A stretch of DNA of 32,657 nt, from assembly GCA_021324255.1 (NCBI GenBank), contig JAJPJL010000101.1, positions 1 through 32,657 on the forward strand, in the 5' to 3' direction. Shown in pieces: positions 30,268 to 32,657 of the stretch. This stretch comes from Bacillota bacterium. Lineage in GTDB: Bacteria; Sysuimicrobiota; Sysuimicrobiia; Sysuimicrobiales; Segetimicrobiaceae. A program made the translations under genes and the position numbers. Position 1 is the stretch's first letter. Each line of letters starts with the position of its first letter. The notes below the pieces were generated by a model, which had not been told where the DNA came from, did not search any database, and saw only the letters and a list, made by a program, of their open reading frames with translations.

Positions 30268-30291
30268 CCAACCGCTACGGAGGTGATCACC

Positions 30292-30723
30292 GTGACACTG
30301 CGTTCGATGTTCCGCGGACCGGGTTCCAAGCTGGTGCTCGTGTGCGCCGCCTCGTTGATGCTGAGCGGCGTGCCGGCGTACGCCGATTCGGGCGGAGGCT
30401 ACGGGCAAGCCCCCTACGGGTACGGCGCCCCGTACGGGAACGGATCGTGCCAGCAGCCCGGCGGCTGGAATGGCTGGAATGCCGGGAACGGGTGCCAGAA
30501 CGGCGGCGGCTATCGCGGTACCCCCGATCAACCGTATCGCGGCCCGCGGAACGCGCCGAGCTACCAGGATGACCGCCGGTACGGCGCGCCGCAGTACGAC
30601 AACCGGCGGTACGTCGGCCCGCAGTACAACGACTGCCAGGACCCCAATCGCGGCGGCTGCCAGCCACCGGCGCCGCAGCCGAACGATCAGCGCAACATTC
30701 ACGACGACGGCAACAGCAAGTAG
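30292..30723 (+). CDS. Secreted Gly/Tyr/Gln/Asn-rich low-complexity protein, unknown function
   Basis: A protein of 143 residues with a Sec signal peptide (SKLVLVCAASLMLSGVPAYA, cut before DSGGG). The mature part of ~110 residues is rich in Gly, Tyr, Pro, Gln and Asn (YGQAPYGYGAPYGNG, two copies of an RRYxxPQY motif near DDRRYGAPQYDN) and holds four cysteines. It has no recognisable fold and resembles disordered cell-surface or matrix proteins. GTG at 30292 was chosen because it has correct spacing from GGAGGTGATC; an in-frame GTG at 30283 lies inside that site. It is 73 nt before the permease gene on the same strand. Confidence 0.75.
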   Translation: MTLRSMFRGPGSKLVLVCAASLMLSGVPAYADSGGGYGQAPYGYGAPYGNGSCQQPGGWNGWNAGNGCQNGGGYRGTPDQPYRGPRNAPSYQDDRRYGAPQYDNRRYVGPQYNDCQDPNRGGCQPPAPQPNDQRNIHDDGNSK

Positions 30724-30796: not shown

Positions 30797-31897
30797 GTGA
30801 GCCCGTGGGGACGCCGCGTGGACGAACTCACTGCACGCCGGGAGCATGCCTCGCCATCGGAATCACCGTATCTCTGGGGCGTGCTCCTCTTTTTTCTTAC
30901 CACGATCGTCGGCCTCTACTACGCCAAGTGGATGCCGTATTTCCATCGGGCCCTCACCGCCGCCGCGACCCATAGTCTCGGACCCTCGATCGTGAGCGGC
31001 AAGGCCGCGGTGCCGCCCGCCGTGGGATGGACGGCGGCTTGGTCGTACACGGTGGCGTACGCCGGCGCCGTGTGGCAGGCCCTGGTCGTGGGCCTCCTGG
31101 TGGGATCGGGCATCCAAGCGCTGCTGCCTCGGGCCTGGCTGACCCGGTTCCTCGGGCGCGCCGGCTTCACAACCACCGCCCTTGCGGGAGCCGTATCGAT
31201 TCCGTCCATGATGTGAACATGCTGTGCGGCCCCACCGGCGGTGGGGCTGGCGAAGAGCCGGGCGTCCACCGGCGCCGTTCTCGCGTACTGGCTCGGCAAC
31301 CCCATGCTCAATCCCGCGACCTTGATCTTCCTGGGCTTCGTCCTCGGCTGGCGATGGGCGGCGTTGCGCGCCGCCACCAGCATCCTCCTCGTCCTCGGCG
31401 TTGCGTATCTGGCTGAGCGGTTCGTGGCGGGGCGCGCGGCCCGGCCCGCGGCGCCGGCGCCAGCCGTCCCCGACGCCGCGTCCGATCGCCGTCCGCTCCT
31501 CGTCCGGTGGGCGAGCGCGTTCGGGCAACTCGCGGTCGGGCTGGTCCCGGAGTACTTTGTGATCGTGGTCGTGCTCGGGGCCGTGCGCGCCTGGCTCTTT
31601 CCCGCGATGACCCCGGCGATCGGACACAGCCTGTGGTTGATCGTGGGCCTTGCACTGGCGGGGACCCTGTTCGTGGTGCCCACCGCCGGAGAGGTTCCGA
31701 TCGTGCAGACGCTCCTGGCGTTCGGTCTCGGCGCGGGAGGCGCCGGGGCGCTCTTGGTGACCCTGCCGCCGGTGAGCCTGCCGTCGCTCGTCATGGTCGG
31801 ACGCGCCGTGCCCGCTCGGGCGCTGGCGTTCGTCGCCGGCTCCGTGGCGGTGCTGGGCGTCCTGACCGGGCTCGCCGCCCTGGTGCTCAGGCTCTGA
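30797..31897 (+). CDS. ArsP/YraQ-type permease (DUF318, PF03773-like), candidate selenoprotein with in-frame TGA
   Basis: A polytopic membrane protein of 366 residues if the TGA at 31214-31216 is read through as selenocysteine (residue 140). The sequence on both sides belongs to one protein in one frame. Before it are helices around YLWGVLLFFLTTIVGLYYA and YAGAVWQALVVGLLVGSGIQ, then GAVSIPSMM; after it come TCCAAPPAVGLAKSRASTG, AVLAYWLGNPMLNPATLIFL, and a second half with VPTAGEVPIVQTLLAFGLGAG. Relatives of this family carry Cys-Thr-Cys-Cys-Ala-x-Pro here, so the TGA replaces the first Cys, leaving Cys142 and Cys143. Some members (ArsP) export trivalent organoarsenicals; the substrate here is unknown. 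GTG 30797 is the assumed start, GTG 30818 the alternative. Without recoding, the gene would be split into a 139-residue and a 218-residue ORF, the latter starting in mid-motif. Confidence 0.8.
31214..31249 (+). promoter_or_regulatory. SECIS-like element: TGA codon plus downstream hairpin inside the permease gene
   Basis: TGA (31214-31216) is followed after 10 nt by the arm CGGCCCCACC (31227-31236), the loop GGC (31237-31239) and the arm GGTGGGGCTG (31240-31249): ten consecutive pairs, one of them G-U. Twenty nucleotides separate the TGA from the apical loop, and the loop begins with G. Bacterial SECIS elements, as I recall the published models, are stem-loops directly downstream of the UGA with a G among the first loop bases and this order of spacing. 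Only comparison with relatives or a SECIS search can confirm it. Confidence 0.65.
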
Positions 31898-31959: not shown

Positions 31960-32657
31960 ATGCTCAGGCAGTGGCTCGACGTGGCGCCGAGCGACCTTGC
32001 GGAGTGGGTCACGGACGCGCGGCGCCGGACCGTGGAACTGGCGGCCGACCTCACGGACGCCCAGCTCATGGGGCCGCGCCTGCCCATCGTGAATCCCTTG
32101 CTGTGGGAAATCGGACACATGGCGTGGTTTCAGGAAAAATGGGTGCTCCGGCACGTGTGCGGCGAGCCGCCGATCCGCGGCGACGGGGATGCGCTCTACG
32201 ACTCCTCGGCGATCCCGCATGACGCGCGCTGGGACCTCCCGCTTCCGGCGCGGGAGGCGACGCTCGCGTACGCCTACGCCGTCCGGGATCGCGTCCTCGA
32301 CAAGCTCCGCGCCGAACCGCACGAGCAGCTCGTGTACCATGTGCTCTACTCCGTCTTCCACGAAGACATGCACACGGAGGCGTTTACGTACACGCGACAG
32401 ACGCTCGCGTACCCCGCGCCGCGTTTTTCCGACGCCCCGAGCGCGATCCCCCGCACCGGCGGGGGGCCGCTGCCCGGCGACGCGCCCCTGCCCGGAGGCG
32501 CGCTGATGCTCGGCGCGGCTCCCAACGGGCCCTTCGCATTCGACAACGAGAAATGGGCCCACCCGGTGGAGGTTCGCCCGTTTGCGATCGCGCGGGCGCC
32601 CGTGACGCAGGCCGAGTTCGCCGCGTTCGTCGAGAACGACGGATACCGGCGGCGCGA
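31960..32657 (+). CDS. EgtB/SenA-like DinB-FGE (SUMF1) non-heme iron enzyme, partial
   Basis: The 5' portion, 232 codons, of a gene that runs off the window. ATG at 31960 follows GGGGAGGTG. The N-terminal DinB domain has WEIGHMAWFQEKWVLRH and HEDMHTEAFTYTRQ, giving the three histidines of the HX3HXE iron site found in EgtB. From about residue 185 an FGE-sulfatase domain begins (GALMLGA, FAFDNEKWAHPVEV, FAIARAPVTQAEFAAFVEN). EgtB joins cysteine or gamma-glutamylcysteine to hercynine for ergothioneine; its homologue SenA uses a selenosugar to make selenoneine. The first-His motif here (LWEIGHMAWFQEKW) looks to me closer to the SenA-like WxxGHxxWFQExW than to the EgtB-like KWHxxHTTWFFE, but this is from memory. 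It lies 62 nt after the permease stop on the same strand. Confidence 0.85.
   Translation, partial: MLRQWLDVAPSDLAEWVTDARRRTVELAADLTDAQLMGPRLPIVNPLLWEIGHMAWFQEKWVLRHVCGEPPIRGDGDALYDSSAIPHDARWDLPLPAREATLAYAYAVRDRVLDKLRAEPHEQLVYHVLYSVFHEDMHTEAFTYTRQTLAYPAPRFSDAPSAIPRTGGGPLPGDAPLPGGALMLGAAPNGPFAFDNEKWAHPVEVRPFAIARAPVTQAEFAAFVENDGYRRR

Follow-up and report, generated by a model that had tools for sequence, protein, structure and literature searches.

A putative selenocysteine-containing ArsP_1 permease with a SECIS-like hairpin, encoded beside genes of selenium metabolism

According to two papers, selenium transporters that are specific or of high affinity are not known. A member of the YeeE/YedE family with selenocysteine (Sec) is listed in PMC13188914, a 2026 list of selenoprotein families that also gives, in its section 5, the consensus of the bacterial SECIS (bSECIS) element. 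This source makes no mention of PF03773, YraQ, DUF318 or ArsP. COG0701 is likewise without mention in PMC5322559, PMC9312934 and PMC2432076. The literature covered was open-licence, so these negatives do not imply absence from print. Among the described selenoproteins the Cu/Zn efflux protein SO_0444 (NF033936; PMC13188914) resembles the permease studied here in its motif, which is UxC there and U-T-C here, but the profile match is weak. Membership in that family was rejected, since the permease scored 33.6 bits where 300 are required, and it therefore represents another subfamily.

In the current study, this locus was interpreted as encoding a Sec-containing ArsP_1 permease, with a hairpin downstream of the UGA acting as its SECIS element and a role in selenium metabolism. 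To this joint reading we assign a probability of about 0.82.

The permease gene and its in-frame TGA

The window (the whole stretch of DNA analysed, 32,657 nucleotides) carries at 30797-31897, on the forward strand, a permease gene of the ArsP_1 family (PF03773), which gives 366 residues on read-through. Its GTG is only a possible start, and a TGA stop codon ends the gene. The Pfam ArsP_1 model scored 84.2 bits, above the gathering score of 32.3. A further TGA, in frame at 31214-31216 on the same strand, occupies residue 140 within the motif Met-Met-Sec-Thr-Cys-Cys-Ala-Ala-Pro, and homologues align a Cys with it: all 97 distinct homologues lacking the TGA have a Cys codon at this site (TGC in 77, TGT in 20). 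Permease copies with TGA at the same site were found in three other genomes, namely G001 (75% identity), G005 (49%) and G1088 (two copies, 48%), and in all three the reading frame past the TGA is intact and conserved. A Cys paralogue of the permease is present in the genome that holds the window (63% identity) and in G001 (62%). The TGA at 31214 is very likely read as Sec.

For INDEPENDENCE, TGA was found in three places on the tree (columns 138-152 masked): the window with G001, G005 beside the Cys rows G852 and G862, and G1088 among Bacillota-type rows. G1088, G852, G862 and G386 fall within one class. A single Sec clade was rejected (p-AU 1.4e-66), a value to be read with caution given the long branches of G1088 and G005.

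Further TGA homologues were searched for with P0001 as query (E <= 1e-30). Five genomes among 386 relatives had a match, all of them already known, and no further TGA homologue was detected there. Matches in 12 of the 348 genomes of one phylum were all without an in-frame stop, while seven of the 356 genomes of another phylum matched, one of them (G1088) with TGA. In one class of 337 genomes three had a match and none an in-frame stop, and in the 39 genomes of the class of G1088 four had a match, with no new TGA. A pattern scan of IMG/VR for the TGA motif gave 0 matches. Homologues of the permease on plasmids (16 records) were all at or below 60% identity. The permease homologue of G862 at L192:828-1808 has one in-frame TAG, and a nearly identical sequence, L191, has none.

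On the 5' side of the permease, positions 30283-30723 of the window encode a short protein rich in Gly, Tyr and Gln, with a likely signal peptide; no other relative was found in the loci searched. At the start of the contig lies a tRNA-Ser (GCT; 17-107), and an Rfam scan of the window gave a tRNA as its sole match.

An AlphaFold2 model of the permease, made with 28 sequences, had a mean pLDDT of 82.6 and a pTM of 0.82, and placed residue 140 between the predicted helices 124-137 and 141-153. The residue is plausibly at the substrate site of the modelled protein, at the break between two half-helices. The closest structural neighbours were transporters of sulfate, dicarboxylate, phosphate and arsenite (human NaS1, Z 11.7; ArsB, Z 10.4). 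In the comparison with elevator folds of the ion-transporter type (NaS1, VcINDY, ArsB) the best Z was 11.7 and the best Foldseek E value 0.17, the Foldseek search giving nothing at E <= 0.001; a sequence search of solved structures gave nothing convincing. The Z values for NaS1 and ArsB are middling for a helical protein and may reflect a common helical arrangement only.

Gene context and predicted function

Directly downstream of the permease, at 31960-32657 on the forward strand, lies the 5' part of senA, encoding selenoneine synthase (NF041186, 247 bits on the fragment); the gene is truncated where the contig ends. An exact overlap of 107 bases joins the end of the window to the start of contig C100, which carries the 3' part of senA, senB (390 bits) and egtD (363 bits). 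The order permease-senA-senB-egtD, with senA directly after the permease, was also found in G001 (senA 520 bits, senB 386 bits) and in G005 (533 and 398 bits), where an aminotransferase-like gene follows. Divergent from the G005 operon is a LysR gene of the selenium-metabolism type (L127:6426-7700, forward strand), which at 229.8 bits scored below its cut-off of 250. With senA and senB together taken to define a selenoneine cluster, such a cluster is present in the genome of the window, in G001 and in G005. When 43 genomes of the order were searched, senA was above the cut-off in G001 and G005 and was recovered as two contig pieces in the genome of the window; weaker fragments occurred in other genomes of the order. 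The same three of the 43 genomes hold both senA and the TGA permease.

The permease copies of G1088 lie on short contigs and had no senA alongside. Directly 3' of the permease, G1088 encodes a ResA-like protein of the WAxxUGC family (NF041054; L193:2544-3576), with 517 bits against a cut-off of 300. This gene has an in-frame TGA of its own, so that two putative selenoprotein genes adjoin. Near plasmid-borne senA, the permease family was absent from the 5 neighbourhoods examined among 11 matches.

Relatives with Cys at the TGA site were also analysed for their gene neighbourhood. The set comprised 79 loci (80 less L013), which were picked by similarity and not by their neighbours. At 33 of them selA, selB or selD lay within about 4 kb (32 within 1.5 kb), the genera being Hyphomicrobium, Methylocella, Dyella, Luteibacter, Rhodanobacter, Paraburkholderia, Paenibacillus, Bacillus and Niallia, together with several MAGs. 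Thirteen of the 33 represent a single arrangement in Burkholderiaceae, a family that contributed 41 loci. At the other 46 loci none of the three genes was found within about 4 kb. Distant ArsP_1 loci had selA, selB or selD in 0 of 23 cases with flanks of about 1.5 kb, which is a rough control because the flanks were shorter and the selenium status of the genomes was not established. In loci of the Hyphomicrobium type (L030, L039, L048, L057 and L059) the Cys permease has selD on one side and fdhE on the other, and selB and a tRNA-Sec lie nearby.

This gene context gives good support to a role of the permease in selenium metabolism, and the family is a candidate selenium transporter. The alternative for its function is the efflux of metals, arsenic or organometals, as in ArsP, SaoE and SO_0444, with the selenium genes nearby owing to detoxification or chance. 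The Pfam assignment to ArsP_1 speaks for efflux, as do the weak matches to the models of SO_0444 and SaoE (membership in the latter, NF040736, was rejected with 36.1 bits against a cut-off of 325) and the presence of an MntR/DtxR-like regulator and a plastocyanin-like gene near the G1088 copies. Against it stand the selA, selB or selD neighbours at 33 of the 79 Cys loci, which extend over several families and arrangements, and the position of senA 3' of two Sec permease lineages that lie apart on the tree. Efflux is a real, if disfavoured, possibility. A broader proposal, put forward tentatively and with chances a little under even, is that the clade is the missing dedicated bacterial selenium transporter, feeding SelD and through it the synthesis of both Sec and selenoneine; in a few lineages it would have placed selenium, as Sec, in its own substrate site, and selenium supply would then also control the synthesis of the transporter itself.

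The hairpin downstream of the TGA

An earlier note on this DNA had claimed a pairing of two arms over ten positions around a GGC loop, right 3' of the TGA, in RNA that must also encode conserved residues. Direct reading of the sequence bears out both points. On the forward strand the left arm, CGGCCCCACC (31227-31236), the apical loop GGC (31237-31239) and the right arm, GGTGGGGCTG (31240-31249), follow a spacer of ten bases (31217-31226), so that the loop begins 20 nt past the TGA. The stem has ten contiguous pairs, nine of them Watson-Crick and one G·U (31228-31248), and the same RNA encodes Thr-Cys-Cys-Ala-Ala-Pro-Pro-Ala-Val-Gly-Leu. The limits of the bSECIS model are 16-37 nt from UGA to loop, a stem of 4-16 bp and an energy of -7.5 kcal/mol or lower. 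With 20 nt, ten contiguous pairs and -20.1 kcal/mol for the extended hairpin, the structure falls within all three.

The hairpin could nevertheless be a by-product of GC-rich coding, with the TGA still read as Sec and SelB relying on another element or on little structure. On folding energy this explanation fits well: the energy of 31190-31270 was no better than that of shuffled sequences (z -0.14), and among 85 homologues the best SECIS-model hairpin of the window ranked 20th, the 19 above it all being Cys homologues. Energy was dropped as evidence for a SECIS element because GC-rich Cys homologues fold equally well. The length of the stem gave a different result. The uninterrupted stem of ten pairs was the longest among the 85 homologues, and also among 101, and synonymous recoding of the window peptide produced an equally long stem in 0.74% of draws and an equally long Watson-Crick stem (8) in 0.37%. 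The contention of the earlier note that the complementarity is unlikely to be fortuitous therefore holds for uninterrupted length and fails for energy.

An 8-bp core (31229-31236 with 31240-31247, forward strand) is common to the window, G001 and G1088. In the same register it was found in three of the four distinct TGA homologues and in none of the 97 distinct Cys homologues, the best of which reached 6 of the 8 pairs. The suspicion that the hairpin might be kept equally in homologues with a Cys codon is thereby answered in the negative, and the suggested pattern of a stem in TGA homologues and its loss in Cys homologues was observed with one exception, G005. In this TGA homologue only 3 of the 8 core pairs are possible, so the stem is not formed; other hairpins that fit the model are present, one with the loop CGUGA at 23 nt. 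If G005 inserts Sec, it does so without the core stem, which favours the by-product explanation. The suggested search for compensatory changes yielded one double change, C-G to U-A, at the loop-closing pair between window/G001 and G1088; another pair changed from C-G to U-G. The covariation score was not significant on four distinct rows (237 of 500 shuffles reached it), a number of rows that gives no power.

The core requires C as the first base of codon 147, which pairs with a G of Val149. Among the 97 Cys homologues, residue 147 is Val (81 sequences), Ile (7), Leu (6), Met (2) or Ala (1), and with Val or Ile at this position the core arose in 0 of 50,000 recodings each. Codon 147 encodes Pro in the window and G001 and Leu in G1088, and is thus C-first in both hairpin lineages. 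Six Cys homologues are also C-first here and reach at most 6 of the 8 core pairs, indicating that residue 147 alone does not make the stem. Given residue 147, synonymous recodings formed the core in the same register in 2.4% of cases for the window (0.18% with Watson-Crick pairs only) and in 1.5% for G1088, where an equally long stem appeared in 5.5%.

The stem appears in two of the three Sec lineages on the tree; the window and G001 form one lineage, so the independent hairpin lineages number two. The recurrence of the core in the same register in two Sec lineages that lie apart, its absence from all 97 Cys homologues, the rarity of the stem length under synonymous recoding in the window and the need for an unusual residue at 147 all argue against the by-product explanation, which is rather unlikely. 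The description 'SECIS-like' proved apt, given the position at 20 nt, the loop with G first, the Sec machinery of the genome, the restriction of the core to TGA homologues and its recurrence in G1088. From these comparisons of sequence, the hairpin at 31227-31249 is quite probably the SECIS element of the permease UGA.

Decoding of the UGA and comparison with known systems

The genome of the window contains a tRNA-Sec (74.2 bits, also found by ARAGORN), and profile matches identified SelB (321 bits) and SelA (527 bits); the genes for tRNA-Sec, selA and selB are grouped in one region. In addition, SelD and an FdhA-like protein of this genome each carry an in-frame TGA. Some bacteria have unusual tRNAs that read UGA, and Cys is the residue of the family at this site, but the idea that another tRNA decodes the UGA, giving Cys or Trp, is very improbable in view of the clustered Sec genes, the UGA-containing SelD and FdhA-like proteins and the TGA with which the permease gene itself ends. 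A true stop, arising from a sequencing error, a pseudogene or a truncated product, agrees with the end of the frame at the TGA under translation table 11 and is equally implausible, as G001, G005 and G1088 share the codon at this position and keep an intact, conserved frame beyond it, Cys is found in all other homologues and the Sec machinery is present.

In the proposed mechanism, the UGA at 31214 would specify Sec in an ArsP_1 permease of the Met-Met-Cys-Thr-Cys-Cys clade. SelB would bind the hairpin at 31227-31249 and Sec-tRNA would enter at the UGA, placing Sec at the predicted half-helix break, plausibly the substrate site. The permease would head the selenoneine operon permease-senA-senB-egtD and serve selenium metabolism, presumably by moving a selenium compound.

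Across several families, members of the clade adjoin selD, selA, selB or senA, and three separate lineages carry Sec, which makes the clade a concrete and testable candidate for a selenium transporter. The hairpin may add a case in which a SECIS element and an altered residue close by go together in more than one lineage. It is read here as an ordinary SECIS in an unexpected context, within a selenoprotein subfamily missing from the PMC13188914 list, where SO_0444 with UxC is present and PF03773 and YraQ are absent.

The hairpin resembles the bSECIS consensus (PMC13188914) in its 3-nt loop with G first, located 20 nt from the UGA, in a stem of more than 4 bp and in an energy below -7.5 kcal/mol. 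The hairpins of the FdhA-like protein and SelD in the same genome have the loops GGU or CGU, whereas that of the permease has GGC. Among known permeases, enterobacterial proteins of the YraQ type (one record is annotated yraQ) were tblastn relatives with 45-47% identity over about 290 residues. YedE, the predicted selenium transporter (PMC5322559), is also a membrane protein clustered with selenium genes, but belongs to PF04143 according to the table of PMC13188914, whereas the present permease belongs to PF03773. Finally, the locus resembles the known selenoneine pathway of SenA and SenB in the presence of senA, senB and egtD, here after the permease, and differs in having a Sec permease as the head of the operon.
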